A stretch of DNA of 64,000 bases from Rhodanobacter sp. (GTDB taxonomy: Bacteria; Pseudomonadota; Gammaproteobacteria; Xanthomonadales; Rhodanobacteraceae), in assembly GCA_040371205.1 (NCBI GenBank), contig AP031382.1, forward strand, positions 682,001 through 746,000, written 5' to 3'. Under the pieces are notes generated by a model that worked only from the letters and a program-made list of their open reading frames with translations, searched no databases and had not been told where the DNA came from. Below are positions 13,549 through 39,242 of the stretch, piece by piece. Positions within the stretch are counted from its first letter, which is position 1. Every line of letters begins with the position of its first letter. The position numbers and the translations under genes are program-made.

Positions 13549-13605
13549 CATGCATGCGCTGCAGGTCGGTGTTAGCGTCCATGTAGAACGATCTAAATTT
13601 GATCG
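13549..13605 (+). promoter_or_regulatory. Promoter region and LacI-type operator of the GH2-GH3-GH125-GH92-GH2 operon
   Basis: GTAGAACGATCTAA (13583-13596) has the central CG of LacI-family operators and lies in a wider imperfect palindrome CGATCTAAATTTGATCG (13589-13605). A CATGCA element starts at 13549, 36 bp before the AGAACG core. The same two-part arrangement occurs ahead of the second TonB receptor and the third GH92 gene. A TAGCGT at 13573 could be the -10 box. Confidence 0.7.
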
Positions 13606-13655
13606 GCGACCAATGCACCACGGTTGCCCGCATCGTGGGATGGAAGAGAGGGGCA

Positions 13656-16325
13656 ATGAAGAAGCCTTGGATGCAACGCATGCCAGGATGCTGCTGGCGA
13701 CTTCTGCTGCTGGCCGCTTGCGTGCTGGCCGTACCGCCGCCGGTCGAGGCGGCGCAGTTGGCGACGCAATCGCTGGATGGCGGCTGGCAATTCCGCCTGG
13801 CGCCCGGTGACAAACACGCCGCCGAGCATCCGGATGTTGCGCGCTGGCTGCCGGCGAGCGTGCCGGGCACCGTGCAGACCGACCTGCTTGCCGCGAAGCT
13901 GGTCGCCGACCCCTACGTGCGCGACAACGAAGCGAAGATCCAGTGGGTGGGCTTGTCCGACTGGCAATACCGCAGCACCTTCGCCGTGGATGCGGCCACC
14001 TTGAAGCGCGGGCACGTGGATCTGGTGTTCGACGGCCTGGACACCTTTGCCGACGTCTCGCTCAACGGCCACCGGTTGCTGGCCGCCGACAACATGTTCC
14101 GCCGCTGGCGCGTGCCGGCGAAGGCGTGGCTGCATGCGGGGACGAACACGCTGGTGGTCACCCTGCATTCGCCGATCGCGCGCCTGCAACCGTGGTTGCT
14201 GAAGCAGCCCTACGCGCTGCCGGGCGAGTTCGACACGCCCTTCGGCGATGAACCCGAAGGCAAGCAGACCGCCAACTACGTGCGCAAGGCCGCCTGGCAG
14301 TACGGCTGGGACTGGGGGCCGCGCATCGTCACCGAAGGCATCTGGAAGGACGTGAAGCTGGAGAGCTGGGACACGTTGCGCCTCGCGGATTTCCACATTG
14401 CGCAGCCGAAAGTCACTGCGGACATGGCCGAGCTGCAGGCGCAACTCGACCTCCGCGCCGACGCCGCCGGCACGGCCAAGGTCATGTTGCGCTGGCGCGC
14501 GCCGGACGGCGCCGTGCAGTCGCAGGCCAGCGACGTCGCGCTCAAGGCCGGCGACAACCGCGTCGCCGTGCCGCTGCGCATCGCCGATCCGCAGCGCTGG
14601 TGGCCGGTGGGCTACGGCGCGCCGAACCTGTACGACTTCCACGTCGAGGTGGACATGGACGGCCACGCCGTGGCCAGCGCGGACCGCAGCACCGGCCTGC
14701 GCAGCATCGAGCTGCGGCGGCAGAAGGATCGCTGGGGCAGGAGCTTCGAGTTCGTGGTGAACGGCGTGCCGATCTTCGCCAAGGGCGCCGACGTCGTCCC
14801 GCAGGACATGTTCCCGAACCGCGTCACGCCGGCGCGCATCGACGCGATGCTGCAGTCCGCGCGCGATGCCAACATGAACATGCTGCGCGTCTGGGGCGGC
14901 GGCTACTACTTCGACGACACGTTCTACGCCGAGGCCGACAAGCTGGGCCTGATGGTGTGGCAGGACTTCATGTTCGGCGGCGCGATCCCGCCCTACGACG
15001 AGGCTTTCCGCGACAACACGCGCGTCGAGGCGATCCAGCAGGTGGATCGCCTGCGCGACCATCCCTCCATCGTCCTGTGGTGCGGCAACAACGAGGTCGA
15101 GACCGCGTGGGAGTCGTGGGACGGCAGCTTGAAGCTCAAGGCCACGGAGCCCAAGGCCGAAGTGCAGCGCATCGAACAAGGCATGCGCGAACTGTTCGAC
15201 CACACGCTGCGCGACGCGGTGGCGACACAGTCGCCCGAAACGCCGTACTGGCCGAGCACGCCGAGCAGCGACTACGACACCAAGGCCAACGTGCTGGACG
15301 ACGGCGACTACCACTACTGGAACGTGTGGTCGGGCGACGCGCTGCCGCCGACGGCCTACCTCGACGTCACCCCGCGCTTCCAGTCCGAGTACGGGCTGCA
15401 GTCCTTCCCGTCCATGGCCACGCTGCGCAGCGTGCTCGCGCCGGCCGATCTCGACATCGATTCGCCCGTGCTGCGCGCGCACCAGAAATTCGACAAGGGC
15501 CGCGGCAACCAGCGCCTGCTGATGTACGTGGAGCGCGAGTACGGCAAGCCGAAGGACTTCGCATCGCTGGTTTACCTGAGCCAGGTCATGCAGGCCGAAG
15601 GCATCCAGCTCGCCGCCGAACACCTGCGCGCCTCGCGTCCGCAGAGCATGGGTTCGCTGTACTGGCAGCTCAACGACGTGTGGCCCGGCGTGACCTGGGC
15701 CAGCATCGACTACTACGGCCGCTGGAAGGCGCTGCAGTACCACGCCAGGCGTTTCTATGCGCCGCTGCGCGTGGTGGCCATCCGCAAGGATGGCAAGACG
15801 CAGGTGTCGCTGGTCTCCGACCGCACCGAAGCATTCGACGCCGAGTTGCGCGTGCGCGTGCTCGGCATGGACGGCAAGACGCTGTGGGAGCACGCGCAGC
15901 CGGCGCACGTGGCGGCGCTGGCGAGTACGCCGGCCGGCGACTACACCGATGCACAGCTGCTGCATGGCGCCGATCCGCGCCGCACGGTGGCGGTGTTCGA
16001 GTTGCTGGACCACGGCAAGCCGGTCTCGCGCCATCTGGTCTACTTCGACGACGCGAAGAACCTGGCATTGCCCGATCCCGGCCTGAAGGCGGAGCTGTCC
16101 GCCGACGGCCGCAGCGTCACGGTGAGTGCCCAGCACCTTGCGCGCGAGGTGTGGGTGGATTTCGGCGAGGCCGGTGCCGATGCGCGCCTGTCCGACAACG
16201 CGTTCGACCTGCTGCCCGGCGAGTCGGTGACCTTGCGCGTCGACAGCACTGCCGATGCAGCCGCATTGCGGCGTGCGTTGACGGTGCGCAGCCTGTACGG
16301 CGCCACGGCAGGCACGCCGCCATGA
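13656..16325 (+). CDS. Exported GH2 beta-mannosidase (NixH-like)
   Basis: 889 residues. It removes beta-linked mannose from the non-reducing end, in N-glycan breakdown the core Man-beta-1,4-GlcNAc. The start ATG 13656 has an AGAGGGG ribosome site and opens a signal peptide (CCWRLLLLAACVLAV). The upstream in-frame start at 13599 lies inside the operator and is rejected. Domain order is the GH2 sugar-binding jelly roll (residues ~30-200), Ig-like domain, then TIM barrel. The acid/base glutamate is in WCGNNE (about E480) and the nucleophile in QSEYG (about E578), the beta-mannosidase form of these motifs. First gene of a tight operon; its stop overlaps the next start by 4 bp (ATGA). Confidence 0.93.
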   Translation: MKKPWMQRMPGCCWRLLLLAACVLAVPPPVEAAQLATQSLDGGWQFRLAPGDKHAAEHPDVARWLPASVPGTVQTDLLAAKLVADPYVRDNEAKIQWVGLSDWQYRSTFAVDAATLKRGHVDLVFDGLDTFADVSLNGHRLLAADNMFRRWRVPAKAWLHAGTNTLVVTLHSPIARLQPWLLKQPYALPGEFDTPFGDEPEGKQTANYVRKAAWQYGWDWGPRIVTEGIWKDVKLESWDTLRLADFHIAQPKVTADMAELQAQLDLRADAAGTAKVMLRWRAPDGAVQSQASDVALKAGDNRVAVPLRIADPQRWWPVGYGAPNLYDFHVEVDMDGHAVASADRSTGLRSIELRRQKDRWGRSFEFVVNGVPIFAKGADVVPQDMFPNRVTPARIDAMLQSARDANMNMLRVWGGGYYFDDTFYAEADKLGLMVWQDFMFGGAIPPYDEAFRDNTRVEAIQQVDRLRDHPSIVLWCGNNEVETAWESWDGSLKLKATEPKAEVQRIEQGMRELFDHTLRDAVATQSPETPYWPSTPSSDYDTKANVLDDGDYHYWNVWSGDALPPTAYLDVTPRFQSEYGLQSFPSMATLRSVLAPADLDIDSPVLRAHQKFDKGRGNQRLLMYVEREYGKPKDFASLVYLSQVMQAEGIQLAAEHLRASRPQSMGSLYWQLNDVWPGVTWASIDYYGRWKALQYHARRFYAPLRVVAIRKDGKTQVSLVSDRTEAFDAELRVRVLGMDGKTLWEHAQPAHVAALASTPAGDYTDAQLLHGADPRRTVAVFELLDHGKPVSRHLVYFDDAKNLALPDPGLKAELSADGRSVTVSAQHLAREVWVDFGEAGADARLSDNAFDLLPGESVTLRVDSTADAAALRRALTVRSLYGATAGTPP

Positions 16326-18916
16326 CGAAACGCCTCGCCGGTGCGGCGATTCTCGCGCTGCTGCTGGCGGCGACCGGTGCCATGGCGCAAACGCAGAGCG
16401 CAACGGCGCGCGCGCAGGCGCTGGTGGCGAGGATGACGCTGGCGGAGAAAGTGTCGCAGTTGCAGAACGACGCGCCGGCGATCCCGCGTCTCGGCGTGCC
16501 GGCCTACGAGTGGTGGAACGAGGGCCTGCACGGCCATGCGCGCGACGGATACGCCACCGTGTTCCCGCAGGCCATCGGCCTGGCCGCGAGCTGGGACGCG
16601 CCGCTGTTGCAGGCCGTGGGAACCGTGGTGTCGGTCGAAGCACGCGCCCGCTTCAACGCGGTCGGCGCGGGGCACGCGCACCAGCGCTACCAGGGGCTGA
16701 CCATCTGGTCGCCCAACATCAACATCGACCGTGATCCGCGCTGGGGCCGCGGCCAGGAAACCTACGGCGAGGATCCGTTGCTCACCGGCAGCCTCGCGGT
16801 GGCTTTCGTGCATGGCATCCAGGGCGACGACCCGCGCCACCCGCGCGCCATCGCCACGCCCAAGCACTTCGTGGCGCACAGCGGGCCGGAAACCGGCCGC
16901 GACAGCTTCGATGCGGTGGTCTCGCCGCACGACCTGGAAGACACCTACCTGCCGGCCTTCCGTGCGGCGGTCACCGCGGGCGACGCGGGTTCGGTGATGT
17001 GTTCCTACAACGCCTTGAACGGCGTGCCAACCTGCGCCGACGCGATGCTGCTGGACACCTGGCTGCGCAAGGACTGGGGCTTCAAGGGCTACGTGGTGTC
17101 CGACTGCGACGCGGTGGGCGACATCGCGGCCTTCCATCACTACAAACCCGACGACGTGCAGGCTGCCGCGGCCGCCCTGGCTGCGGGAACCGACCTCGAC
17201 TGCGGCCACACCTACGCGAACCTTGCCGCGGCGGTGCGCAAGGGTGCAATCCCCGAATCCGCGCTGGATGTCGCGCTGGTGCGGTTGTTCGCCGCGCGCT
17301 ATCGCCTCGGCGAGCTGGGCAGCGACGATCCGTATGCGCAGATTGGCGCGAGCGAGATCGACAGCGCAGCGCATCGCAAGCTGGCCTTGCAGGCCGCGCT
17401 GGAGTCGCTGGTGCTGCTGAAGAACGCGCACGCCACGCTGCCCTTGCACAGCGGCCTGCGCCTCGCGGTGATCGGCCCCGACGCGGACACGCTAGAGACG
17501 CTGGAGGCGAACTACCACGGTACCGCGCGCATGCCGGTGACGCCATTGCAGGGCATGCGCGAACGCTTCGGCGCCGACCGTGTCAGCTACGCCCAAGGCG
17601 CGCCGGTGGCTGCCGGTGTACCGGTTCCCGTGCCGGAGACGGCGTTGCGCACGCCGGATGGCGCGGCGGGCCTCCGCGGTGCGTATTACGCGAACGCGGA
17701 TTTCGGCGGCGAGGCCACGCTCGTTCGTACCGATCGTACGATCGACTTCGACTGGGACCGCGCGGCGCCTGCCGCCGGCCTCGATGCCAGTCATTACGCG
17801 GTGCGCTGGAGCGGCGAGCTGCTGCCGCCGGGTCCGGGCGACTACCTTCTGGCCGTGCACGTGGATCGCTGCTTCGACTGCGACGCGCACGATGCGGTGC
17901 GCCTGTTCCTGGACGGCAAGCCGCTGCTCGCGGACGACGGCGACGACAAGCACATGCAGGCGAAGCTGCATTTCACCGACGACCAACCGCACACGCTGCG
18001 CATGGAGCTGCTACACCGCAGCCGCGACGGCGGCGTGCGCCTGCAATGGCTGGCGCCACCCGCGGCGCAGCTGGCCGAAGCCGACCGCGCGATGCGCGCG
18101 GCGGACGCGGTGGTCGCCTTCGTCGGCCTCTCGCCCGACGTCGAGGGCGAGGCCTTGCGGGTCGAGGTGTCCGGCTTTGCCGGCGGCGACCGCACATCGC
18201 TGGCGCTGCCGGCGCCGCAGCGCGCGTTGCTGGAGCGTGCCGCAGCCTCCGGCAAGCCGCTGGTGGTGGTGCTGATGTCCGGCGGCGCGGTGGCGCTGGA
18301 CTGGGCGAAGCAGCACGCCGACGCCATCCTCGCCGCGTGGTATCCGGGGCAGGCCGGCGGCACCGCGATCGCGCAGGTATTGGCAGGCGACAGCAATCCG
18401 GCCGGCCGCCTGCCGGTGACGTTCTACCGTTCGGTGCACGACCTGCCGCCGTTCACCAGCTATGCGATGCAGGGGCGCACCTACCGCTATTTCCGCGGCA
18501 CGCCGCTGTACCCGTTCGGCTATGGCCTGAGCTACACGCGCTTCGATTACAGCGCGCCCACCTTGTCGACGGAGACGCTGAAGGCGGGCGACCCGCTGCA
18601 GGTCAGCGCCGAGTTGCGCAACGCCGGAGCACGCGCGGGCGACGAAGTGGTGCAGGTGTACCTCGACGTGCCGCCGTCGCCATTGGCGCCGCGGCATGTG
18701 CTGGTGGGTTTCCGGCGCGTGCATCTCGCGCCGGGCGAACGCCGGCGCGTGGAGTTCATACTCTCGCCGCGCGACGTGAGCCGCGTGGACGCGGCAGGCA
18801 CGCGCGCCGTCGAACCCGGCCGCTATCGCGTGTTCATCGGCGGCGGCCAACCCGGCGATGCCGCGGGTGTCGCATCCACGTTCACCATCGAAGGCCAGCA
18901 GGTGGTCGCACCATGA
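16322..18916 (+). CDS. Exported GH3 glycosidase with PA14 insertion (NixI-like, beta-xylosidase/beta-glucosidase)
   Basis: 864 residues with a signal peptide (MTKRLAGAAILALLLAATGAMA). GH3 N-terminal barrel: WWNEGLHG, NINIDRDPRWGRGQETYGEDP, KHFVAHSGPE, and the nucleophile motif VVSDCDAVGD with Asp at about residue 261. A PA14 domain (about residues 450-590, GLRGAYYANADFGGEA.., DYLLAVHVDRCFDC) interrupts the second GH3 domain, and a fibronectin-III-like domain closes the protein. In Xanthomonas campestris the GH3 at this operon position (NixI) is a beta-1,2-xylosidase acting on plant N-glycans. The order here supports the same job, though plain beta-glucosidase or xylan beta-xylosidase activity cannot be excluded. 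Overlaps both neighbours by 4 bp. Confidence 0.88.
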   Translation: MTKRLAGAAILALLLAATGAMAQTQSATARAQALVARMTLAEKVSQLQNDAPAIPRLGVPAYEWWNEGLHGHARDGYATVFPQAIGLAASWDAPLLQAVGTVVSVEARARFNAVGAGHAHQRYQGLTIWSPNINIDRDPRWGRGQETYGEDPLLTGSLAVAFVHGIQGDDPRHPRAIATPKHFVAHSGPETGRDSFDAVVSPHDLEDTYLPAFRAAVTAGDAGSVMCSYNALNGVPTCADAMLLDTWLRKDWGFKGYVVSDCDAVGDIAAFHHYKPDDVQAAAAALAAGTDLDCGHTYANLAAAVRKGAIPESALDVALVRLFAARYRLGELGSDDPYAQIGASEIDSAAHRKLALQAALESLVLLKNAHATLPLHSGLRLAVIGPDADTLETLEANYHGTARMPVTPLQGMRERFGADRVSYAQGAPVAAGVPVPVPETALRTPDGAAGLRGAYYANADFGGEATLVRTDRTIDFDWDRAAPAAGLDASHYAVRWSGELLPPGPGDYLLAVHVDRCFDCDAHDAVRLFLDGKPLLADDGDDKHMQAKLHFTDDQPHTLRMELLHRSRDGGVRLQWLAPPAAQLAEADRAMRAADAVVAFVGLSPDVEGEALRVEVSGFAGGDRTSLALPAPQRALLERAAASGKPLVVVLMSGGAVALDWAKQHADAILAAWYPGQAGGTAIAQVLAGDSNPAGRLPVTFYRSVHDLPPFTSYAMQGRTYRYFRGTPLYPFGYGLSYTRFDYSAPTLSTETLKAGDPLQVSAELRNAGARAGDEVVQVYLDVPPSPLAPRHVLVGFRRVHLAPGERRRVEFILSPRDVSRVDAAGTRAVEPGRYRVFIGGGQPGDAAGVASTFTIEGQQVVAP

Positions 18917-20361
18917 CTGATCGCACAGTAACCCTGCTCAACCGCCGCGACCTGCTCAAGCTGATGGGCGTCGGCGCCGCCGCCTTGGCCGTGCCGCGCC
19001 TCGCCATGGCCGGAGCGGCAAAGGCGTTCGCCAGCCATCGGCCGCCGGCCGACAAGCGCAAGTTCACCAGCAGCGCGGTGGAAGCGGAGATCGCGCGCGT
19101 GCAGGCGAAGATCGGCGACCCGGAACTCGCGTGGCTGTTCGGCAACTGCTACCCGAACACGCTGGACACCACGGTGCAGACCGGCACGCTGCGCGGCAAG
19201 CCGGACACCTTCATCGTCACCGGCGACATCGACGCGATGTGGTTGCGCGACTCTTCCGCGCAGGTGTGGCCCTACCTGCCGCTGGCCGCGCAGGACGCGT
19301 CGCTGCGCCGGCTGTACCGCGGACTGATCCACCGGCACGCGGCGTGCATCGCGATCGACCCGTATGCCAACGCCTTCCTGCCCGATCCGCAAGCGCACAC
19401 CACGCTGAGCTGGGCGCAGCACGACCTCACCGACATGAAACCCGGCGTGGCCGAGCGGAAGTGGGAAGTCGACTCGCTGTGCTGGACCATCCGCATCGCC
19501 CACGGCTACTGGAAGGCCACCGGCGACCGCGTGCCGTTCGACGACGACTGGCGTGCCGCGATGCACGCGGTGCTGGCGACCTTCCGCACGCAGCAGCGCA
19601 AGCATGGGCCGGGGCCGTACCACTTCCAGCGCGCATCGGCGGTGCCCACCGACACCGTGCCGCTGGACGGCTACGGCAATCCGGCGGTGCCGGTGGGGAT
19701 GATCTTCTCGATGTTCCGACCCTCGGACGATGCCTGCATCTATCCGCTGTTCGTGCCGGCCAATGCCTTCGCCGTGGTATCGCTGCGGCAGCTGGCCGAG
19801 ATGTCGCGCGCGCTGCACGGCGATGCCGCGTTCGCCGCCGATTGCGAGGCGCTGGCTGCCGAGGTGCAGGCTGCGCTGGAAAAACATGCGCTGATGCACG
19901 AGGGCGGCGGGGACTTCTGGGCCTACGAGGCGGACGGCTACGGCAACCAGCTGTTCATGGACGACGCCAACGTGCCCAGCCTGCTGGCCTTGCCGTACCT
20001 CGGCTTCTGCGCGAAGAACGACGCGCGCTACCGGCGCACGCGCGCCCGCGCCTGGGGCGGACGCAACCCGTACTTCTTCCGCGGCACCGCGGCGGAGGGC
20101 ATCGGCGGCCCGCACGAAGGCCTGCGCATGATCTGGCCGATGTCGCTGATGGTGCGCGCGCTCACCAGCGAGGACGCCGGCGAGATCCGCCAGTGCCTGC
20201 ACTGGCTCAAGACCACGCATGCCGGCACCGGCTTCATGCACGAGGCTTTCGATCAGGACGATCCCGCGAAATTCACCCGGCCCTGGTTCGCCTGGGCCAA
20301 CAGCCTGTTCGGCGAGTTGATCGTCGAGCTGGCCGACCATCACCCCGAACTGCTGCGCTAG
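18913..20361 (+). CDS. GH125 exo-alpha-1,6-mannosidase with Tat-type signal (NixJ-like)
   Basis: 482 residues. The N-terminus NRRDLLKLMGVGAAALAV is a twin-arginine signal, so the enzyme is probably exported folded. GH125 hallmarks are TGDIDAMWLRDSSAQ (residues 103-117), WEVDSLCWTIRIAHGYWKATGD, GIGGPHEGLRMIWPMSL and the C-terminal HEAFDQDDPAKFTRPWFAWAN. The family cleaves non-reducing alpha-1,6-mannose with inversion. In the Xanthomonas nix system the GH125 removes the alpha-1,6-mannose after GH92 and GH3 action, which matches the neighbours here. Start overlaps the GH3 stop (ATGA). Confidence 0.93.
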   Translation: MTDRTVTLLNRRDLLKLMGVGAAALAVPRLAMAGAAKAFASHRPPADKRKFTSSAVEAEIARVQAKIGDPELAWLFGNCYPNTLDTTVQTGTLRGKPDTFIVTGDIDAMWLRDSSAQVWPYLPLAAQDASLRRLYRGLIHRHAACIAIDPYANAFLPDPQAHTTLSWAQHDLTDMKPGVAERKWEVDSLCWTIRIAHGYWKATGDRVPFDDDWRAAMHAVLATFRTQQRKHGPGPYHFQRASAVPTDTVPLDGYGNPAVPVGMIFSMFRPSDDACIYPLFVPANAFAVVSLRQLAEMSRALHGDAAFAADCEALAAEVQAALEKHALMHEGGGDFWAYEADGYGNQLFMDDANVPSLLALPYLGFCAKNDARYRRTRARAWGGRNPYFFRGTAAEGIGGPHEGLRMIWPMSLMVRALTSEDAGEIRQCLHWLKTTHAGTGFMHEAFDQDDPAKFTRPWFAWANSLFGELIVELADHHPELLR

Positions 20362-24726: not shown

Positions 24727-25175
24727 AGCGTTTCGATTAATCCGGCTTTATTGCCGAGCCGAATAATGAGTACAGAGTGGAGGAAGGCATGGTCTTTCTC
24801 CAGACCGCCGTTTGTCCTGATTTCATGCATTGAATTGAACGGCAATGCTTTAGGTCGGGGTTCATTGGCGCAAATCGATTAATGAAGGGTAAAGATTTTG
24901 CGCGGTGCAGCGTGACATGGCGCACCTCGGCGTATAAGTTTCAAAGACGATTTAGATCGATACAAATTCGGCTTTTTTGGACGCCCGTGGGGTGACCTGG
25001 CGTTGCGAGGATTTGCGTGTCGTGAAGGGGTTTCGATAGGCGTGCCAAGGATTATCTGCGGGGTGCCGGAGGCTGTTATGGCGACGTGAATGAATTGTCT
25101 ATCCAGACAGGGCCAGGAGGAGATGTCGCGCTGACTCCAATAAACAATGCGCGCCAATGAAATGGGGATTCAAAC
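24727..25175. promoter_or_regulatory. Intergenic regulatory region ahead of the first TonB receptor
   Basis: 449 bp without a gene. It holds a degenerate LacI-type operator TTAGATCGATACAA (24952-24965; 11 of 14 match the form ahead of the third GH92) and, upstream, two TCGATTAAT words (CG at 24734 and 24876) that may be further weak sites. The region is AT-richer than its neighbours. No convincing terminator for the preceding operon is seen. Confidence 0.55.
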
Positions 25176-28358: not shown

Positions 28359-28460
28359 CAACGTGGGCAAGCCGATCCGGGGATGTGCCGGTTGATCCAG
28401 CACGTCCCCGGTCGTCTGGCATCGTGGAGAGTGCGATTTCCTCTCCTCGCTGGAGGAGTC

Positions 28461-30866: not shown

Positions 30867-31309
30867 CCGACATTCCCGTGCCCGCGATCCCGGAAGGTGC
30901 CCTGTCCATGGCAGCGACCGCTTTCGAACCGTGCTGCGCTCACGCTGGACGGCCCGGTTCGGCTGTTCCATGACGGAGTGAAGCCAATCGAGAGCAGCCG
31001 AGCTGGTCCGGATCGGTGGGGCGCCGGCCATATTGCGTTGCGGCATGCATTGCATCGGACGTAGTGATAGCTTTAAATATGGAACGATCTAAATTTCTTC
31101 GCAAATTTGGATAAGCTGAAGAAAGACCACTAGGAATGCGGGGTTCCGAGCGTGCTTGTGAAGCGTGGCGGCGGGTGGTGATTTCACCCTGAATTGTCAC
31201 GATCTAATCAAGCCGGGTGTCAAAGAAAGCAAGCGGAATCGAACGGGTCAGGGGTGTCTCGCCGGTTCGCGTGACAACAACAAACAACCATGTTGAGGGA
31301 GGGGTTTCC
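30867..31309 (+). promoter_or_regulatory. Leader region of the second TonB receptor with two LacI-type operators
   Basis: 443 bp without a gene. Operator 1: ATGGAACGATCTAA at 31079-31092, followed by ATTT. Operator 2: TTGTCACGATCTAA at 31194-31207, 115 bp downstream. A CATGCA element starts at 31044, 37 bp before the first GGAACG, and TTGCAT (31050) with TAAATA (31074) could be -35/-10 boxes. The receptor's ribosome site GAGGGAGGGG lies at the end of the region. Confidence 0.65.
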
Positions 31310-34300
31310 ATGCGTCATGCCATCGCATTGCGTCGCAATGCACTTGTGAGTGCGCTTTCCATCGCGCTGCTGTCGCCGCTTGTCGTGCAGGCGCAAACAG
31401 CCTCGTCCGGCGATGCCCAGTCCGCGCAGCCCAATTCGGCGCAGCCGGCCAACCAGAAGAATGCGGTGAAGCTGCAGGCGGTCATGGTGACCGGCTCGAT
31501 GATCCCGCGCGTGGAGGTCGAAGGGCCGGCGCCGGTGGTCAGCATTTCGGGCGCAGAGATCAAGCAGCAGGGTTTCACCACGCTGTGGGAATTCCTGGAT
31601 TCGCTACCGCAGATGGGGCAGCAACCGCAAGATCCGGCCAGTTGGGGGGCCACCGCGGTGAATGCGCGCCCGGTGAATCTACGCAACCTGGGTGCTGGTT
31701 TCAGTCTGCTGATGATTAACGGCGTTCGCGTGGTGGATTACCCGCAACCGCTGGGCGCGCAGAGCAGCTTCCAGAACTACGCAAACCTGCCTACTGGCAT
31801 GATCGATCATGTCGAGATCCTGGCTTCCGGTGCCTCGTCGATCTACGGTTCGGATGCGGTGGCGGGCGTGGTCAACGTGATCCTGAAGAAGAACTACCAG
31901 GGTGACAATCTGCAGGTCACCGGCGGCGGCGCCACCCGTGGCGGCCGCGCCTATGGCGACATCAATTTCTCCGGTGGCAAGTCCGGCGAAAACTGGCATA
32001 TCCTCTACAACGTGGAGAAATCCAACCGCTCAGCCTTGTGGGGCATGGATCGGCCCTATCAGGACTCGGTGGCGGATGCGGGCTACGGCGCCTGGGGGCC
32101 GGCCGCGCGGATGTTCGGTTACCAGTACGACACGGCCGGTGCCATCGCGCTCTCCGCGATGGACGGCAACGGCCATTACATCACCCCGCCGACGGGCACC
32201 TGCGGCAAGTTCAGCAACTCGCAGTTGAGCCAGTCGCATAGCGTCAGTACCAGCGGCACGCAGATCACCGGTACCACCGACAATGGCTATTACTGTTCGC
32301 AGCCCGCCCTGTTTCAGAACTGGGTGCTGACGCCAGGCAGCCGCACCACCGACGGTTACTTTGCCGGCGAGTACGATTTCAGCAATGGCCTGCAATTCTA
32401 CGGCTCGGCGGCCCTGTACAACACGGTGGGTATCTCGCAGACCCAGTTGCCCTTCTTTGGTTACGGTGGCCCGTTCTATGACTCGAGCACGGGGCAAACC
32501 ATCAACGCACTCGACCGCCAGTTGACCGCGCAGGAAATCGGCACGTCCGCCAATACCCATGACCGCGAGCAGAACTGGAACATCACGGCCGGCCTGCGCG
32601 GCACCATGTTCGACGGCAACTTCAACTGGGACTTCAGCCTCAACAGCCAGAAGTACATCGTGCGCGAGGACTTTACGGGCATGGACCAGGCGGCCATGAA
32701 CAACTTCTTCCTCGGGCCGCAGATGGGGACCACCGCAGGTGGGCTGCCCATCTACGCCATCAACTGGCAGCGCTTCTGGAACCCCATCACGCCGCAGCAA
32801 TACAGCCAGTTCGGGGTCAATGGCGAGAACACGGCGGAGTCGTCGCTGAACCAGGCGCAGTTCCGCATCAACGGCGACCTGTTCAAGTTCCCGTGGGTGG
32901 ACGAGTCGGTGGGTTGGGCGGCCGTGCTGGAAGCTGCGGACAACGATTTCCTGCTGTCGCCGGATCCGCGCGAGGCCAACAGCGCGACCTTCGTGGACCC
33001 CTTCTATAACGACAACTTTGGCGGCGGCAGCCGACAGCGCTTTTCGCTGGGCACCGAGTTCCGCGTGCCTATCCTGAACTCGCTGACTTGGACCATCTCC
33101 GGCCGCCTCGACAAGTACCACGACGCCAGCAGCGCCGACATTGCCCGTACCTGGGGCACCGGCCTCGAATGGCGCCCGCTCGACAGCCTGCTGATCCGCG
33201 GCAGCTACGGCACCAATTTCAAGGCGCCGGACATGGAGGCAATCTACCAGGGCGGCTCCGTCGTGCCGCAAGGCATTTACGAGGATTATTACCAGTGCAT
33301 CAACGCCATCAAGGCTGGCAACACCTCGAGCACCTGGTGCGACGGTAATACTCAACGTCCCCAGTCGCAGTGGTACGAGCAGAGAACGGTCGGCGGCCCG
33401 GATCTGGTGCCGGAGACCGGCCACTCCTGGACCTATGGTTTTGTGTGGCAGATTCCGGGCGTGCAGGGCTTGTCCGTGTCTGCCGACTACTGGCACATGG
33501 GTGTGAGTAACGCCATCGAGTACATCGGCCAGAGCACCGTGCTCCAGGACGAGGCTGGCTGCCTTACCGGCTATCAGGCGGACGGCTCGACGGGTCTGTC
33601 GCCGTACACCGCGCACGTACCGGGATCGGCGTATTGCCAGATGGTGATAGCGGATGTGCAGCGCAATGCGGCAGGCCAGATCACCTCAGTGCAATCCGGC
33701 CCGATCAACGAGGCCTCGCTCTATGTGAGCGGTGTCGATGCCTCGCTGCAGTACAAGCTGAATACCGAGGAATACGGCAATTTCACCACCAGCATCAACT
33801 ACACCGACAACCTCTCGTACAAGCAGCGCGTGCTGTCTTCCGACCCGTTGTTGAACACTCGTTACAACAACGTGGCGAGCAGGGTTACCTGGATCGGCAC
33901 TTGGCAGAAGGGCGATTGGAACGCGTCGATCTCCGGCGTGCGCGATGGCCGCATGCGCGCACCTGGCTACGGTAACTGCAACACGCTAGCCAATGGCATC
34001 CAGCCGAGCCCGGTGACTTACGTCAGCAGTGACGGGACGACGGTCCATACCGGCGTTTGCCAGATCGGCGGGGTAACCGTCAATGACACCGTCTACTACG
34101 GCCATGTGCCGACGTGGATCACCTGGAGCGGCTCGATCGGCTGGCAGATCAACCCAGAGACCAAGCTGAGCTTCACAGTGTCCAATATCTTCGACAGGGT
34201 CTCTTCGATCCCGTACTACGCCGGTGGCTTCGAGTTCGTCACCACCGGCCAGACCGGCAGCGAATACAACGGTCGCGAAATGTTCCTGACGTTTGACTAC

Positions 34301-34312
34301 AAGCTCGACTGA
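31310..34312 (+). CDS. TonB-dependent receptor, second of three
   Basis: 1000 residues from ATG 31310, chosen because of the GAGGGAGGGG ribosome site and the signal peptide RRNALVSALSIALLSPLVVQAQ that follows; an upstream in-frame GTG at 31217 would add 31 residues ahead of the signal. Plug domain: MVTGSMIPRVEVEGPAPV, TLWEFLDSLPQM, VNLRNLGAGFSLLMINGVRV, DHVEILASGASSIYGSDAVA. This is the iron/vitamin-like plug form rather than that of the first receptor, so the two are not recent duplicates. The barrel ends EMFLTFDYKLD. It is a single-gene unit with its own operators and terminator. Mannoside cargo is inferred from the shared operator. Confidence 0.92.
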   Translation: MRHAIALRRNALVSALSIALLSPLVVQAQTASSGDAQSAQPNSAQPANQKNAVKLQAVMVTGSMIPRVEVEGPAPVVSISGAEIKQQGFTTLWEFLDSLPQMGQQPQDPASWGATAVNARPVNLRNLGAGFSLLMINGVRVVDYPQPLGAQSSFQNYANLPTGMIDHVEILASGASSIYGSDAVAGVVNVILKKNYQGDNLQVTGGGATRGGRAYGDINFSGGKSGENWHILYNVEKSNRSALWGMDRPYQDSVADAGYGAWGPAARMFGYQYDTAGAIALSAMDGNGHYITPPTGTCGKFSNSQLSQSHSVSTSGTQITGTTDNGYYCSQPALFQNWVLTPGSRTTDGYFAGEYDFSNGLQFYGSAALYNTVGISQTQLPFFGYGGPFYDSSTGQTINALDRQLTAQEIGTSANTHDREQNWNITAGLRGTMFDGNFNWDFSLNSQKYIVREDFTGMDQAAMNNFFLGPQMGTTAGGLPIYAINWQRFWNPITPQQYSQFGVNGENTAESSLNQAQFRINGDLFKFPWVDESVGWAAVLEAADNDFLLSPDPREANSATFVDPFYNDNFGGGSRQRFSLGTEFRVPILNSLTWTISGRLDKYHDASSADIARTWGTGLEWRPLDSLLIRGSYGTNFKAPDMEAIYQGGSVVPQGIYEDYYQCINAIKAGNTSSTWCDGNTQRPQSQWYEQRTVGGPDLVPETGHSWTYGFVWQIPGVQGLSVSADYWHMGVSNAIEYIGQSTVLQDEAGCLTGYQADGSTGLSPYTAHVPGSAYCQMVIADVQRNAAGQITSVQSGPINEASLYVSGVDASLQYKLNTEEYGNFTTSINYTDNLSYKQRVLSSDPLLNTRYNNVASRVTWIGTWQKGDWNASISGVRDGRMRAPGYGNCNTLANGIQPSPVTYVSSDGTTVHTGVCQIGGVTVNDTVYYGHVPTWITWSGSIGWQINPETKLSFTVSNIFDRVSSIPYYAGGFEFVTTGQTGSEYNGREMFLTFDYKLD

Positions 34313-34431: not shown

Positions 34432-34453
34432 CATGCCCGCTTGCGCGGGCATG
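34432..34453. repeat. REP-like palindromic hairpin
   Basis: CATGCCCGC, loop TTGC, GCGGGCATG: a perfect 9-bp stem in the convergent gap between the receptor and the isomerase gene. The motif resembles dispersed xanthomonad palindromes. It could also stop minus-strand transcription, although no T run follows. Confidence 0.6.
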
Positions 34454-34488
34454 ACGTCGACGGAACCGGGCAGTGAAGGCGTCTGGCG

Positions 34489-35721
34489 TTAGCGCGCGCG
34501 CAGTTGGAGCAGTTCGTAGCAAGCGCCCATGGTGTGGTAGTCCACCTTGCCGGCCGGGCTCTTCTCGTCGCTGACTTTGCGGTTGTCGCGGGTGAGGATG
34601 CGGTACCACGCGCCGTATTGGTGGTCGACGAAGTGCTGCCAGGAATACGACCACAGCCTGTCGTGCCACGCGGCGTAGCCGGCGTCGCCGGTACGGGCGT
34701 GCAGCAGGGCGGCGGCGGCCAGCGATTCGGCCTGCACCCAGAAGTATTTGTCGTCGTCGCACACGCTGCCGTCGGGCGCGAAGCCGTAGCACAGGCCGCC
34801 GTGCGTCTCGTCCCACGCATGTTTCACCGCGGTGTCGAACAGGTGGCGTGCGGTGGGCAGGATCCAGGGCTCCTCGCGGTTGCGTTCCAGCAGCAGCGAT
34901 TCGAGGATCAACAGCAGCTTGGTCCATTCGGTCTGGTGGCCGGGCTGGAAGCCCCAGGGGCGGAACAGGTGCTTGGGGTCGTCCTTGTGGTATTCCCAGT
35001 CGATGCGCCACTGCGTGTCGTAGTGCTCCCACACCAGGCCGTCGGCCAGCGCGGCCTGGCGGCGCGTGATGTGCTCGGCCAGCATCAGCGCGCGGTCGAG
35101 GTAGCGCACCTCGTCGCTGGCCTGGTAGGCGGCCAGCATGGCCTCGCACATGTGCATGTTGGCGTTCTGGCCGCGGTAGCCGCTGAAGTTCCACTCCGCG
35201 TCGGCTTCGTCGCGGTACAAGCCGGTTCCGGCGTCCCAGAAGCGGCGTTCGAGCAGATTCCAGGTTTCGTCCATCCATGCGGCAGCTTCGGCGACGCCGG
35301 CCTTGCGCGCGCTGGCGTAGGCCAACAGCACGAAGGCGACGCCGTAGGCATGGTTGGTGCGGTCCTCCGGCGCGCCGTCCTGGATCGTCCATGCATAGCC
35401 GCCGCTCTGCGCATCGCGGTGCACCTCGCGCAGGTAACGCAGGCCGTGCTGCACGGCATCGAGATATTCGGCGGCGAGCTTCGCGTCGTCGGCGAATTCG
35501 ATGGCTGCCATCGCGTAGTTGAAGACGAAGCGCGTGCTGCTCACCAGGTGGCGGTGGCTGCGGTCGTAGATCGTGCCGTCGTCCTTGTAGTAGTGGAAGA
35601 AACCGCCGGCCGGGTCGATGGCGTGCGGGTGGTAGAACGCCATGGTGTCGGCGATGTGCCGGCGCAGGAAGGCGGGCGAGTTGAAGTCGGGCAGCGGCGT
35701 GGCGGGCAGTACGGAGCGCAT
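34489..35721 (-). CDS. AGE-family sugar epimerase/isomerase (probable D-mannose isomerase)
   Basis: 410 residues, cytoplasmic, (alpha/alpha)6 barrel of the N-acylglucosamine 2-epimerase superfamily. Motifs: SSTRFVFNYAMA near residue 60, RGQNANMHMCEAML, FQPGHQTEWTKLL with a probable catalytic histidine, FWVQAESLAAAALL and the C-terminal DYHTMGACYELL with the second histidine. Family members interconvert mannose with fructose or glucose, or epimerise GlcNAc/cellobiose. The adjacent kinase and hexose transporter and the surrounding mannosidases favour mannose to fructose. Last gene of the lacI operon; 11 bp separate it from the kinase gene. Confidence 0.85.
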   Translation of the reverse strand: MRSVLPATPLPDFNSPAFLRRHIADTMAFYHPHAIDPAGGFFHYYKDDGTIYDRSHRHLVSSTRFVFNYAMAAIEFADDAKLAAEYLDAVQHGLRYLREVHRDAQSGGYAWTIQDGAPEDRTNHAYGVAFVLLAYASARKAGVAEAAAWMDETWNLLERRFWDAGTGLYRDEADAEWNFSGYRGQNANMHMCEAMLAAYQASDEVRYLDRALMLAEHITRRQAALADGLVWEHYDTQWRIDWEYHKDDPKHLFRPWGFQPGHQTEWTKLLLILESLLLERNREEPWILPTARHLFDTAVKHAWDETHGGLCYGFAPDGSVCDDDKYFWVQAESLAAAALLHARTGDAGYAAWHDRLWSYSWQHFVDHQYGAWYRILTRDNRKVSDEKSPAGKVDYHTMGACYELLQLRAR

Positions 35722-35732
35722 GTGTGTCGGAC

Positions 35733-36707
35733 TCAGGAATGGGAGGCCATGAAGGCGAGGACTTCGTCGGTGGTCGGCAGCGCGACGAACGAGCCCTGCC
35801 GCGTCACCGCAATGGCGGCGGCAGCGGCGGCATGGCGCAGCGTGTCGTGCAGTCGCGGCAGCGCGGTGACCAACGCATCGAGGTCATGCGGGCCGGTGCC
35901 CAGCTCGGCCAGCTGCTGCAGCAGGCCGCCCACGAAGGCGTCGCCCGCCGCGGTGCTGTCGACCATCGGTACGCGGTAGGCGGGCAGTTCGCCCTCGGCA
36001 TCGGGATGGAACCAGCGCAGCGGATTGGGGCCGTCGGTGACCACCAGCAGGCGCGTGCAGCCTTGCCAGAGGCGCGCCAGCATCGCTTCCTCGCCGTCCA
36101 CCGCCAGCCAGGCGAATTCCTCGGCGCTGAGCTTCACCAGGTCGGCGAGCTGCAGGGCGGGCCACACTTCCGTGTGCGCATCGGCACCTTGCGGCCACAA
36201 CGCGGGGCGCAGGTTGAGGTCGAAGCTCACCAGTGCGCCGGCGGCGCGCGCGCGGCGCATGCCTTCGCGGGTGGTTTCCGCTGCGGCCGGCTCCGTCATG
36301 CTGTTGGAGCAGACGTGGAACACCGCGGTGCCGTCGAACGCATCGGTGCGGAAGTGTTCCGGGCGGAACAGCAGGTCGGCCGAGGGCGGGCGGTAGAAGC
36401 TGAAGCTGCGGTCGCCGTGCGCGTCCAGCGCCACGAAGGCCAGTGCGGTGTTCGCTTCGCCGGTGCGCGCCACATCGCGGGTGTCCACGTTGGCGTGGAG
36501 CAGGCTGTCGAGCAGGAAGTCGCCGAACAGGTCCTTGCCGAGCATGCCGGCGAAGCGCGCGGCGCCGCCGAGCTTCGCCACCGCCACCGCCACGTTGGCG
36601 GGCGCGCCGCCGGCGAAGGGCACGAAGGCCTGCGGATAGCCGTGCGGGTCGCGGCCTTCGGCATGGAAATCGATCAGGGCTTCGCCGAAGCAGAGTACGG
36701 AACGCAT
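35733..36707 (-). CDS. PfkB-family sugar kinase (probable fructokinase)
   Basis: 324 residues, ribokinase fold, cytoplasmic. N-terminal FGEALIDFHA, the di-glycine substrate motif PFAGGAPANVAVAVAKLGG, and the C-terminal ATP/anion-hole motif DSTAAGDAFVGGLL, whose aspartate is the catalytic base. It would phosphorylate the ketose made by the neighbouring isomerase, giving fructose-6-phosphate; mannokinase activity is the alternative. The ATG at 36707 lies 14 bp after the transporter stop in a tight operon. Confidence 0.87.
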   Translation of the reverse strand: MRSVLCFGEALIDFHAEGRDPHGYPQAFVPFAGGAPANVAVAVAKLGGAARFAGMLGKDLFGDFLLDSLLHANVDTRDVARTGEANTALAFVALDAHGDRSFSFYRPPSADLLFRPEHFRTDAFDGTAVFHVCSNSMTEPAAAETTREGMRRARAAGALVSFDLNLRPALWPQGADAHTEVWPALQLADLVKLSAEEFAWLAVDGEEAMLARLWQGCTRLLVVTDGPNPLRWFHPDAEGELPAYRVPMVDSTAAGDAFVGGLLQQLAELGTGPHDLDALVTALPRLHDTLRHAAAAAAIAVTRQGSFVALPTTDEVLAFMASHS

Positions 36708-36721
36708 CGTGCGGTATACCT

Positions 36722-38029
36722 TTAGTTGGCGTCGCGGATCTTCGATCCGCGCAGGCCGTAGAACAGGATGAAGGCGTAGCACAGCACCGGCAGCACGAAG
36801 GCGTGGTGCACGCCGAGATGGTCGGCCAGCACGCCCTGCAGCCACGGGATCACCGCGCCGCCGACGATGGCCATGATGAGCAGGCTGGACGCCTTGTCGG
36901 TGAGCGGCCCCAGCTTCTCGATGCCCAGCGCGAAGATGGTGGGGAACATGATCGAGTTGAACAGTCCCACGGCGACGATGCTGTACATCGCCAGGTGGCC
37001 TTCGGTCATCATGCTGGTCAGCACCAGCACGCCCGCGATGGCGGCGAACACCGCCAGTAATCGGCGCGGGTTGAGCCATGCCAGCAGGAAGGTGCCGAGG
37101 AAGCGGCCGATCATCGCGCCGGTCCAGTAGAAGCTCACGTAGCGCGCGGCCTGCTGCTCGGTCATGGCGCCGATGTCGGGCTGGGTGATGTAGTTGATGA
37201 GGAAGCTGCCGATGGCCACCTCCGCGCCCACGTAGCAGAAGATCGCCAGCACGCCGTAGGCCACGTGCGGAATGCGCAGCGCGTCGCCCAGTGTGTGCTT
37301 GCGGCCGTCGGCCTGTCCGCCGGCCTCGGCCAGCGGCGGCAGGTGGAACAGCGCCACGAACACCGCCAGCAGGAACAGCACGGCGGCCAGCACGAGGTAA
37401 GGCATCTGCACCGAATGCGCCTGCTGCGCACGATAGGCTGCCTGCTGCAGGGCGGGCAGGGCGGCGACCTGGTCGGCGGTCAGCATCACGCCGGAAAGGA
37501 TCAGTATGCCGCCCACCCAGGGCGCCACGGCGGTGCCGAACGAGTTGAGCGTCTGCGCCAGCGTCAAGCGGCTGGAGCCGGTGCGCGCGGGGCCGAGCAG
37601 GGCGACGTAGGGATTGGCCGCCACCTGCAGCACGGTGATGCCGGTGGCCAGGACGAAGAACGCGAACAGGAACAGCGGATAGCTCTGCCACTCCGCCGCC
37701 GGCCAGAACAGCAGCGCGCCGATGCCCGCCACCGCGAGCCCCGCCACCATGCCGCGCTTGAAGCCCAGCCGCTCGACCAGCCGGCCGGCCGGCAGGGCCA
37801 TCAGGAAGTACGCGCCGAAGAACACCGACTGCACCAGCATCACCCGCGTGTAATCGAGCGTGAAAAGCGCTTTCAGATGCGGGATCAGGATGTCGTTGAG
37901 GCTGGTCAGCGCACCCCACATGAAGAAGATCACCGAGCAGGCCATCATCGCCAGCGGGTAGTCGGTATAGCGTCCGCTGCCAGGGCCGGTGCCGTCGTCG
38001 GCGGTCTGCGTCGATGTGTTGAAAGCCAT
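36722..38029 (-). CDS. FucP-family sugar:H+ symporter (MFS)
   Basis: 435 residues with about 12 transmembrane segments in the inner membrane. The N-terminus has MMACSVIFFMWGALTSLNDILIPHLK and the family's VLQVAANPYVALLGP plus LAQTLNSFGTAVAPWVGG, typical of the glucose/galactose/fucose FGHS group of the major facilitator superfamily. It probably imports the free mannose or other hexose released by the periplasmic hydrolases. An AGGGGA ribosome site precedes ATG 38029, 27 bp after the lacI stop. Confidence 0.9.
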   Translation of the reverse strand: MAFNTSTQTADDGTGPGSGRYTDYPLAMMACSVIFFMWGALTSLNDILIPHLKALFTLDYTRVMLVQSVFFGAYFLMALPAGRLVERLGFKRGMVAGLAVAGIGALLFWPAAEWQSYPLFLFAFFVLATGITVLQVAANPYVALLGPARTGSSRLTLAQTLNSFGTAVAPWVGGILILSGVMLTADQVAALPALQQAAYRAQQAHSVQMPYLVLAAVLFLLAVFVALFHLPPLAEAGGQADGRKHTLGDALRIPHVAYGVLAIFCYVGAEVAIGSFLINYITQPDIGAMTEQQAARYVSFYWTGAMIGRFLGTFLLAWLNPRRLLAVFAAIAGVLVLTSMMTEGHLAMYSIVAVGLFNSIMFPTIFALGIEKLGPLTDKASSLLIMAIVGGAVIPWLQGVLADHLGVHHAFVLPVLCYAFILFYGLRGSKIRDAN

Positions 38030-38056
38030 GCGGTTCCCCTGCCTTAGTGTGCGAAA

Positions 38057-39115
38057 TCAGATGGCGGGCGGCGGGCAGCAGCTGCCGCGCACGACCAGCT
38101 GCACCGGCGCCACGGTGCGTTGCGGTCCGGCCTGCGGATCGCGCAGGCGCTGCAGCAGCAGTTCGGCGGCCTGCTTGCCGCGCGCACGCGGCGTCGAGGC
38201 CAGCGTGGTCAGCGGCGGCGCGCTCAAAGCGGCCTCGGCGATGTCGTCGAAGCCGGTGACGGCGAAGTCGCGGCCGGGCTGGATGCCGCGCTGGTACAGG
38301 CCGAGCATCAGGCCCAGTGCCACCGCGTCGTTGTAGCAGACCGCCGCGGTGGGTGCGGGCGCATCGAAGAACAGGGCGCCGCATTGCGCCGCGGCGTCCA
38401 CGCGGTTCGGCGCGCACTCGATGCGCCAGTGCGGTTCGATCGGCAGGCCGGCGGCCTGCATCGCTTCGAGGTAACCGGCGTGGCGCTGCTGGCAGGAGCT
38501 GGAGCCGGCGTGTCCGCCGAAGAAGGCGATGCGCTTCTGGCCCAGCGCGATCAGGTGCTCGGTGGCCAGCCGTGCGCCGCGCTGGTTGTCCAGCATCAGC
38601 CGGTCCCAGGGCGCGTCGGGCGAAACCGCGCCGGCCAGTTCGCGATTGAACAGCAGCAGCGGGGTGCGTATGCCGATGGTCTTCAGCACCTGGCCGGCGC
38701 CGCTGCCCTCGGCGGGCGACAGGATGATGCCGGCCGGATCATGTTCCAGCAGCGAGGCCAGCACCTGCTGTTCGCGCGCGATGGATTCGCCCGTGCTGCC
38801 GAGCAGGGTGACATAGCCGGTGCCGCCCAGCGCTTCGTCCACGCCGGTGGCGAATTCGGCGAAGAACGGGTTGGCCAGGTCGTTCAGCACCAGCGCAATG
38901 CTGGACGAGGTGCGCCGGCGCAGGTTGGCCGCGGCGCGGTTGTAGACGTAACCTTGGCGGCGCAGCTCTTCTTCGACGCGGGCCCGCGTATGCTTGTTCA
39001 CCAGGGGGCTGCCGCGCAGCACCAGCGACACGGTGGCGCGCGACACGTCGCAGCCAGCGGCGATGTCGGTAAGGGTGATCTTGCGATTGGCGTGAGGTGC
39101 GCTGTCCGTGGCCAT
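38057..39115 (-). CDS. LacI-family transcriptional regulator of the mannoside island
   Basis: 352 residues from ATG 39115. The HTH covers residues ~13-60 (ITLTDIAAGCDVSRATVSLV) with the hinge helix YNRAAANLRR, followed by a periplasmic-binding-protein-like effector domain (IALVLNDLANPFFAEFATGVD, AVTGFDDIAEAALSAPPLTT). First gene of the operon with the MFS transporter, kinase and isomerase. An operator-like 14-mer lies 18 bp upstream of its start, which suggests autoregulation, and copies of that sequence precede the glycan-degrading units. Mannose or a phosphorylated derivative is the probable inducer (inference). Confidence 0.92.
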   Translation of the reverse strand: MATDSAPHANRKITLTDIAAGCDVSRATVSLVLRGSPLVNKHTRARVEEELRRQGYVYNRAAANLRRRTSSSIALVLNDLANPFFAEFATGVDEALGGTGYVTLLGSTGESIAREQQVLASLLEHDPAGIILSPAEGSGAGQVLKTIGIRTPLLLFNRELAGAVSPDAPWDRLMLDNQRGARLATEHLIALGQKRIAFFGGHAGSSSCQQRHAGYLEAMQAAGLPIEPHWRIECAPNRVDAAAQCGALFFDAPAPTAAVCYNDAVALGLMLGLYQRGIQPGRDFAVTGFDDIAEAALSAPPLTTLASTPRARGKQAAELLLQRLRDPQAGPQRTVAPVQLVVRGSCCPPPAI

Positions 39116-39132
39116 GGGTCGCCTGTGGTCGC

Positions 39133-39146
39133 TTGGAACGATCAAA
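39133..39146. promoter_or_regulatory. LacI-type operator ahead of lacI
   Basis: TTGGAACGATCAAA, centre CG at 39139/39140, 18 bp upstream of the lacI ATG. It matches the site at 39224 in 11 of 14 positions. A repressor here would block its own operon. Confidence 0.7.
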
Positions 39147-39185
39147 ATGTAGCCTAAGCCTGCCGCCAGTGGTTCCGCGATGCAA

Positions 39186-39242
39186 CATGCAGTTGCTTGC
39201 GCTGCAATGGTAGCGTCTGCAGCTTGGAACGATTCAAATTTT
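39186..39242 (+). promoter_or_regulatory. Promoter region and LacI-type operator of the third GH92 gene
   Basis: TTGGAACGATTCAA (39224-39237) followed by ATTTT, with CATGCA starting at 39186, 40 bp before GGAACG, and TAGCGT at 39211 as a possible -10 box. It lies 86 bp before the GH92 start in the intergenic region shared divergently with lacI. Confidence 0.7.

Follow-up and report, generated by a model that had tools for sequence, protein, structure and literature searches.

Sugar regulons under LacI-family proteins have been collected in RegPrecise, among them that of ManR for mannose and mannosides (Ravcheev et al., 2014; PMC4052901). As far as the accessible part of that account goes, they share an even palindrome with a central CG, autoregulation and local sugar-catabolic targets. 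A comparable arrangement is described, in the available portion of the source, for carbohydrate utilization loci containing TonB-dependent receptors (CUT loci), in which a TonB receptor, an inner-membrane transporter and a LacI repressor such as SuxR are found in one sugar locus (Blanvillain et al., 2007; PMC1790865). In the nix cluster of Xanthomonas, NixE is a fucosidase and NixL a beta-galactosidase, according to the part of the source seen (PMC5700972). Here, we describe a stretch of 64,000 nucleotides of Rhodanobacter sp. (GCA_040371205.1, contig AP031382.1; hereafter the window), which corresponds to positions 682001–746000 of a genome of 3.477 Mb. It contains a cluster of mannoside genes (the mannoside island) with a LacI-family gene (lacI), TonB-dependent receptors (TBDR1 and TBDR2), an inner-membrane sugar symporter and a run of glycoside hydrolase (GH) genes in the same GH2-GH3-GH125-GH92-GH2 order as in the Xanthomonas nix cluster. 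On the basis of sequence comparison, we consider it likely (probability of roughly 0.86) that short CG-centred 14-mers in the window are operators through which the island LacI, acting as a repressor with a mannose-type inducer, controls a mannoside and N-glycan regulon that also includes genes outside the island.

The original prediction listed six CG-centred 14-mers, placed ahead of the nix-like operon, both receptors, lacI and the third GH92 gene (GH92c). All six strings were recovered exactly at their coordinates, and the placement matches the gene positions. As the pattern TTRGAWCGWTCYAA was drawn from these six sites, a matrix from outside the genus provides the cleaner test. A 16-bp matrix was derived from the lacI-upstream sites of 68 out of 80 loci that encode relatives of the island LacI (the titled loci; a few genomes give two loci), comprising 43 distinct 16-mers. 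The window's genus was left out by removing the ten loci closest to the window's lacI (L069–L077, L132) and L100 and L114, which match contigs of that genus. With this out-of-genus matrix, the six sites take ranks 1–6 of 63,985 window positions (15.6–27.3 bits). A site at 13492 that had been overlooked follows at rank 7 with 14.5 bits, and the next window position reaches only 4.8 bits. The six sites are thus real, but the count was too low, as the window holds seven likely operators. In an earlier matrix that still contained L100 and L114, the six sites stood at ranks 1–5 and 7, and 13492 at rank 6. The predicted operators are:

13492..13505, auxiliary nixH operator TTGGATCGGTTGAA, 91 bp before the main nixH operator; rank 7 with the out-of-genus matrix
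13583..13596, main nixH operator GTAGAACGATCTAA; rank 4 in both matrices
24952..24965, TBDR1 operator TTAGATCGATACAA; rank 1 in both matrices, conserved in position in L169 and L171
31079..31092, main TBDR2 operator ATGGAACGATCTAA; rank 2 in both matrices
31194..31207, auxiliary TBDR2 operator TTGTCACGATCTAA, 115 bp downstream of the main one; rank 6 out-of-genus, rank 7 in the earlier matrix
39133..39146, lacI-proximal operator TTGGAACGATCAAA, directly after a -10-like TACATT on the lacI strand; rank 5 in both matrices, also placed by alignment
39224..39237, GH92c-proximal operator TTGGAACGATTCAA; rank 3 in both matrices, also placed by alignment

In 60 shuffled windows, the top match averaged 9.8 bits with a maximum of 18.4, and three of the 60 reached 15 bits. 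Five of the six sites exceed everything found in the shuffled windows. Since rare shuffled matches reach the scores of 31194 and 13492, these two sites rest on conservation. From the end of the operator to the likely start codon the distance is 60 bp for nixH (13656), 211 bp for TBDR1 (25176), 218 and 103 bp for TBDR2 (31310), 18 bp for lacI (39115) and 86 bp for GH92c (39323).

A motif search over the whole genome, proposed with the original prediction as a check, placed the motif above background at up to one mismatch. At this level, TTRGAWCGWTCYAA has seven sites in the genome against one for the same pattern reversed, and five of the seven are in the island; these five window sites therefore stand out genome-wide. 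The excess falls to 18 against 11 at up to two mismatches, and is absent at up to three (163 against 171).

Conservation of the sites was assessed in the 80 titled loci. In the 600 bp upstream of lacI, the closest match is exact in 57 loci, has one mismatch in seven, two in 11 and more in five, such that a site with at most two mismatches occupies this autoregulatory position in 75 of 80 loci. In shuffled lacI-upstream regions, the best match had one mismatch in 0.05% and two in 0.7% of cases. Over the whole 80 loci, 143 sites were counted at up to one mismatch and none for the reversed control (185 against 9 at up to two), and syntenic relatives hold sites at the same places. A logo of the flanks of the 75 lacI-proximal sites shows a conserved TACATT preceding the site. 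The lacI sites extend to 16 bp, with T at position -1 in 89–95%. The central CG is present in 100% of the 75 proximal and 60 distal sites, which were selected with a pattern that held the CG but allowed two mismatches.

The motif follows this lacI lineage across the family. Among 233 family genomes, a lacI orthologue (best E-value below 1e-80, with at most eight candidates scored per genome) was identified in 144 and was absent from 89. At least one exact site is present in 138 of the 144 genomes with an orthologue, compared to 4 of the 89 without. In total, 347 exact sites fall in the orthologue genomes and 4 in the others, against 7 reversed-control sites over all 233. Presence and absence alternate within genera g2, g4, g23 and g24.

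The island encodes a single LacI protein, as had been claimed, and the genome has seven further LacI-type helix-turn-helix (HTH) domains, eight in all. The lacI frame carries the LacI HTH (PF00356) and a periplasmic-binding-protein-like effector domain (PF13377/PF00532). Among these eight, the island LacI alone has Leu at recognition-helix position AA-20, where the other seven have Arg; of the 80 loci, 78 encode Leu, two Met and none Arg at this position. According to Camas et al. (2010; PMC2978694), Arg at AA-20 is associated with G at base 6 from the operator centre. In our own mapping of that numbering, base 6 (NT-6) of the motif is T in 97–100% of the lacI sites. Lacking Arg at AA-20, the island LacI falls outside the TVSR subgroup that is covered by the recognition code of Camas et al. 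The unique Leu, together with T at base 6, makes the island protein the one LacI of this genome that is expected to read the motif. The hinge-helix Leu that inserts into the central CG is found in the context AANLR or AASLR in all 80 loci. Together, phylogenetic footprinting, co-occurrence and the recognition helix strongly support the claim that one LacI-type regulator joins the transcription units of the island into one regulon.

The top NCBIfam model for the island LacI is MalI (NF007449), at 219.8 bits and below its cut-off of 310. MalI also has Leu at AA-20. The alignment to E. coli LacI spans residues 3–332 of its 360 and stops 3 residues short of the C-terminus of the 352-amino-acid island protein. 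The tetramerization helix of LacI sits at the far C-terminus; as the island protein stops where residue 332 aligns, the tetramerization tail appears to be missing and the protein is expected to be a dimer. Two further observations concern LacI-type HTH domains. One of the Arg AA-20 class (G000:C1:746364, L007) begins 364 bp past the right edge of the window. In L143, L145 and L148, Lys at AA-15 accompanies a CCGG-centred operator variant upstream of lacI; this is suggestive only, as L147 has Lys without a CCGG site and L144 and L146 have Arg with one.

Comparisons with Pfam, NCBIfam and the PDB place the mannoside island at 13.6–41.7 kb of the window. It consists of the GH2-GH3-GH125-GH92-GH2 run, TBDR1 with GH92b, TBDR2, and a minus-strand lacI-MFS-PfkB-AGE group (MFS, major facilitator superfamily) that is divergent from GH92c. 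The run was named nixH–L after what we take to be the gene-to-family assignments of the Xanthomonas nix cluster for most of these genes. The genes are:

13656..16325, plus strand, nixH-like GH2 beta-mannosidase; open frame from 13599; Pfam, closest solved chains 6bye and 6byc, named beta-mannosidase
16322..18916, plus strand, nixI-like GH3, beta-xylosidase-like; Pfam on an overlapping longer frame, NCBIfam Xyl3A 790.6 bits, below the cut-off of 1250
18913..20361, plus strand, nixJ-like GH125 alpha-mannosidase; Pfam on a longer frame
20399..22843, plus strand, nixK-like GH92 alpha-mannosidase; Pfam
22858..24726, plus strand, nixL-like GH2, beta-galactosidase/glucuronidase-like; Pfam on a longer frame, NCBIfam below cut-offs
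25176..28358, plus strand, TBDR1, TonB-dependent receptor; Pfam, NCBIfam TIGR01782 above cut-off
28383..30866, plus strand, GH92b; Pfam, 24-bp gap to TBDR1, probably a member of the TBDR1 operon
31310..34312, plus strand, TBDR2, TonB-dependent receptor; open frame from 31217; Pfam
34489..35721, minus strand, AGE-superfamily epimerase/isomerase, probable mannose isomerase; Pfam, best PDB chains 3gt5 and 5x32, named 2-epimerases
35733..36707, minus strand, PfkB-family sugar kinase, probable fructokinase; Pfam, top NCBIfam model fructokinase, under cut-off
36722..38029, minus strand, MFS sugar symporter of the GluP/FucP kind; Pfam, TIGR01272 and TIGR00885 above cut-off
38057..39115, minus strand, LacI-family regulator of 352 amino acids with recognition helix SRATVSL; Pfam
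39323..41656, plus strand, GH92c alpha-mannosidase, divergent from lacI; open frame from 39197; Pfam, TIGR01180 above cut-off

With the NCBIfam D-mannose isomerase model, the AGE-type protein scores 235.6 bits, short of the 600 required by the cut-off. A GH92 or nixH gene adjoins lacI in 79 of the 80 loci, and the symporter, kinase and isomerase genes are kept downstream of lacI in 62 of the 80; some of the other loci end at a contig edge. Elsewhere in the window, a frame of 2322 amino acids with 15 MBG and two YDG domain matches, followed by a ShlB/FhaC-type transporter (14–8762), looks like a two-partner secretion pair. A trehalase-like gene (48880–50529), an MFS transporter gene (57049–58368) and a GH65-HAD fusion (61057–63966) perhaps form a locus for trehalose or another alpha-glucobiose, and no high-scoring operator is present in the stretch 48880–63966. 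A search of the window for tRNA genes found none.

The sites are not confined to the island. The idea of the regulon as an island-wide unit only did not hold and was dropped, as the host's own genome has sites outside it, preceding the fourth GH92 gene and the only GH29 fucosidase gene:

genome position 2195102, TTAGATCGATCTAA, an exact site 33 bp before the fourth GH92 gene, which is followed by a DUF1080 gene
genome position 1045046, TTATAACGATCCAA, 42 bp before the GH29 fucosidase gene; an aldo/keto reductase gene flanks the site opposite to it

These are the two remaining genomic sites with at most one mismatch besides the five of the island. Pfam identifies four GH92 genes and a single GH29 gene in the genome, no more, and all five belong to units with a site; GH76 was not found in the host genome. 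In relatives, 38 regions around remote sites were inspected (18, L151–L168, and 20, L207–L226), which are part of a longer list and had been picked by coordinate before their genes were known. As a raw fraction, 34 of the 38 sites (15 of 18 and 19 of 20) precede a GH92, GH76, GH29, nixH or TBDR1-GH92b gene, mostly within 600 bp. Two separate observations were made in these regions. In L154, operators at 9281 and 9353, 72 bp apart, precede the gene for a protein of 680 amino acids, possibly a new mannoside protein. In L164 and L167, from g6 genomes, a conserved leader (GGGGGATCACCGCGCC ... GCGCACATCAAAAGTATGGGGAGA) is located between the operator and the TBDR1 start.

Several promoter regions carry two sites. 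Pairs occur at three of the six promoter regions of the host genome (nixH, TBDR2 and lacI/GH92c), 91 or 115 bp apart, with 91 bp for the lacI/GH92c pair. TBDR1 and the two off-island promoters have one site each at the threshold used, barring a weak overlapping match. In the genus, the main-site position is occupied in all 11 nixH promoters examined and both sites are present in nine, at 91 bp in five and at 99–101 bp in four. An alignment of these nine shows an invariant block TTGGATCGGTTGAAG in the auxiliary site, with variable flanks. The TBDR2 promoters have the main site in 9/9 genomes and a partner 109–115 bp away in 9/9 (11 loci, two genomes being read twice), which supports the weak site at 31194. 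Within 450 bp upstream of lacI, at least two sites over 10 bits were found in 73 of 87 regions (the 80 titled loci and seven from genus g17), one in 10 and none in four; the spacing is 88–96 bp in 48, 101–106 bp in 22 and 272–347 bp in three. When nix and TBDR pairs are added, the 102 spacings (two TBDR2 loci counted twice) have a broad periodicity peak at 10.5–11.5 bp (R about 0.6), and the 22 unique spacings show weak periodicity (R at most 0.28). Because the loci are not independent and the periodicity of the unique spacings is weak, we make no claim of helical phasing.

A second element, TGCRRCATGC, recurs in the same promoters. Its three exact copies in the window, where 0.6 are expected, all stand before the main operators of nixH, TBDR2 and GH92c:

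13544..13553, plus strand, second element TGCGACATGC, 39 bp before the main nixH operator
31039..31048, plus strand, second element TGCGGCATGC, 40 bp before the main TBDR2 operator
39181..39190, plus strand, second element TGCAACATGC, 43 bp before the GH92c operator

With one mismatch, the window count is at background (43, with 46 expected). Of 80 lacI upstream regions, 62 contain a more relaxed form (GCATGYYGCR, read on the lacI strand), against an expectation of about 0.03 per region derived from the rest of the loci. Of the 67 exact copies in the 80 loci, 30 stand 41–44 bp before an operator. The element may serve as a -35 region or as a binding site for an activator; a scan of the lacI–GH92c region for the sigma-70 consensus found none.

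We propose the following mechanism. A LacI dimer would bind the CG-centred palindrome tTTrGAtCGwTCyAAa, with one operator per promoter located near or just past a -10-like box, where a bound repressor would block initiation. At nixH, TBDR2 and lacI/GH92c, cooperative binding to, or looping with, the second operator at a distance of 91 or 115 bp would make repression stronger. The protein would repress its own operon, with the genes for LacI, the MFS importer, the fructokinase and the mannose isomerase, as well as the divergent GH92c gene, the nixHIJKL-like N-glycan operon, TBDR1-GH92b and TBDR2, and would also cover the off-island fourth GH92 and the GH29 fucosidase. The corresponding pathway would run from uptake across the outer membrane and trimming of N-glycans or alpha-mannans by GH92, GH125, GH2, GH3 and GH29 enzymes to import of monosaccharides, conversion of mannose to fructose, and phosphorylation. 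Repression would be lifted by a mannose-type sugar freed from N-glycans or alpha-mannans; the pathway of the regulated genes and the mannosidases beside lacI indicate that the inducer is probably mannose or an alpha-manno-oligosaccharide, a reading of gene content.

A number of observations weigh against this model. The site counts at two mismatches in the host's own genome do not allow weak sites to be called alone, and at that level we dropped the notion that 31194, with its two mismatches, is significant by itself. Five of the 80 loci (L134, L136, L137, L139 and L145) have no site with at most two mismatches upstream of lacI. The Fisher p of about 1e-50 for co-occurrence of motif and orthologue overstates independence, as the genomes are related and loci can share a genome. 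Six genomes (G114, G119, G141, G205, G227 and G228) have the orthologue and no exact site, G205 having three one-mismatch sites and G119 weaker sites upstream of lacI (L182), and four (G092, G126, G212 and G231) have an exact site and no orthologue. The 34 out of 38 remote sites are a raw fraction, and for the other four no clear mannosidase or receptor gene follows the site: the L154 site precedes a protein without a Pfam match, the L162 site is near an outer-membrane barrel protein, no gene was recognized near the L168 site, and the L218 site precedes a DUF1080 gene, of the same family as the gene downstream of the host's own fourth GH92. The nixH promoters of L158 (G194) and L160 (G206) have the main site and no auxiliary one, and spacing is the one line of evidence from which looping is suggested.

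Among the alternatives, the most serious is that LacI binds the sites but senses a ligand other than mannose, such as fructose made by the isomerase, or activates at some promoters. This would agree with an operon that, judged by protein families, ends in the formation of fructose and fructose-6-phosphate, and with MalI as the nearest NCBIfam model, though well under its cut-off. Mannosidase genes, however, are the recurrent partners of lacI, as seen in the 79 loci above, and sites near the -10 box fit repression; we regard this alternative as rather unlikely, yet worth keeping in mind.

A different regulator, from among the seven other LacI-type proteins or from another family, could read the sites, with lacI as a passenger or a mere target. 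Many sites are indeed far from lacI, and the seven further HTH domains would offer candidates. Yet motif presence tracks this lacI lineage over the 233 genomes, and two of the sites are within lacI's own promoter region. The site is also palindromic and CG-centred like most LacI-family motifs in the accessible part of the RegPrecise account (PMC4052901). All seven other LacI proteins carry Arg at AA-20, which goes with G at NT-6 where the motif has T, and they were dropped as readers of the sites. We therefore hold a different regulator to be improbable. Slightly less probable still is that the shared blocks form the core of a common promoter type. The main operators do come after -10-like boxes, and TGCRRCATGC is common to the same promoters; but the motif is a near-perfect palindrome, auxiliary copies lie upstream (13492) and downstream (31194) of promoters, and the 89 genomes without an orthologue have only four exact sites. 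That AT-rich promoter DNA produced the six matches by coincidence is hardly credible: the motif is at background with three mismatches and nearly so with two, but a chance origin is contradicted by the out-of-genus ranking, the conservation across species and the 143 sites against none for the reversed control in the 80 loci at one mismatch.

The nix operon appears to be wired differently across lineages. In genus g17, a site stands ahead of a TBDR-GH2-GH125 operon in the seven genomes in which the region was inspected, and an eighth has a site at the same distance from GH125. A search for GH125 in five genomes behind titled loci found it in the Xanthomonas genomes of L134, L136 and L137, and did not find it in X. 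chitinilytica (L128) or Pseudoxanthomonas mexicana (L130). The three Xanthomonas nix clusters (X. campestris not among them), searched with at least 6 kb upstream, contain no site over 12 bits, and in L230 one match with two mismatches is located beyond nixK; the same three genomes carry sites before TBDR-GH92 genes near lacI. The nix cluster of X. campestris is said, from work by Boulanger in 2010, to be under N-acetylglucosamine (Nag) control. Site-bearing nix operons here, set against none in the three Xanthomonas clusters, suggest that the operon may have entered or left the regulon by lineage. A bolder combination would have a dimeric LacI outside the TVSR code loop operator pairs whose distances step by about one helical turn (about 91, 101 and 112 bp), together with an unnamed factor at TGCRRCATGC, in a lineage that captured a nix operon lying outside the regulon in the examined Xanthomonas; we offer this as speculation with the odds against it.

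The repressor model is that of a known kind of system, a LacI-family sugar regulon: in this soil-type bacterium, a single sugar-sensing repressor appears to control the genes that strip mannose from plant and fungal glycans, some of them far from the main cluster. For the window's family and its relatives (the titled loci include Rhodanobacter, Dyella, Frateuria and kin), this would provide a specific alpha-mannan and N-glycan regulon, with a motif good enough for proposing further members by sequence. The 80 loci also bring a well-populated non-TVSR class into the LacI recognition problem, combining a TVSL-type helix (Met in two, TISL in one) with T rather than G at base 6. It also suggests that the same nix enzyme set is wired differently in related families.

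A literature search of titles and abstract openings, with RegPrecise and most subscription papers outside its reach, retrieved no paper on this regulator or motif, and the main text of PMC4052901 contains no word beginning with "Xanthomon". Four features seem to be new: the motif, the membership of the regulon, the regulator's helix class outside TVSR and the extension to N-glycan genes. In comparison with the regulons in the accessible part of PMC4052901, the one described here covers N-glycan and alpha-mannan enzymes, and its sites are spread over the chromosome. It differs from E. coli MalI (malI-malXY) in its targets and in the sub-threshold score of the island LacI with the MalI model. 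As far as the available portion of PMC1790865 describes it, the sugar of the SuxR locus is sucrose, and the regulon described here is wider, with multiple promoters. Unlike in the Xanthomonas nix cluster, GH29, the family of NixE, is absent from the island and occurs once elsewhere in the genome, beside the same operator.

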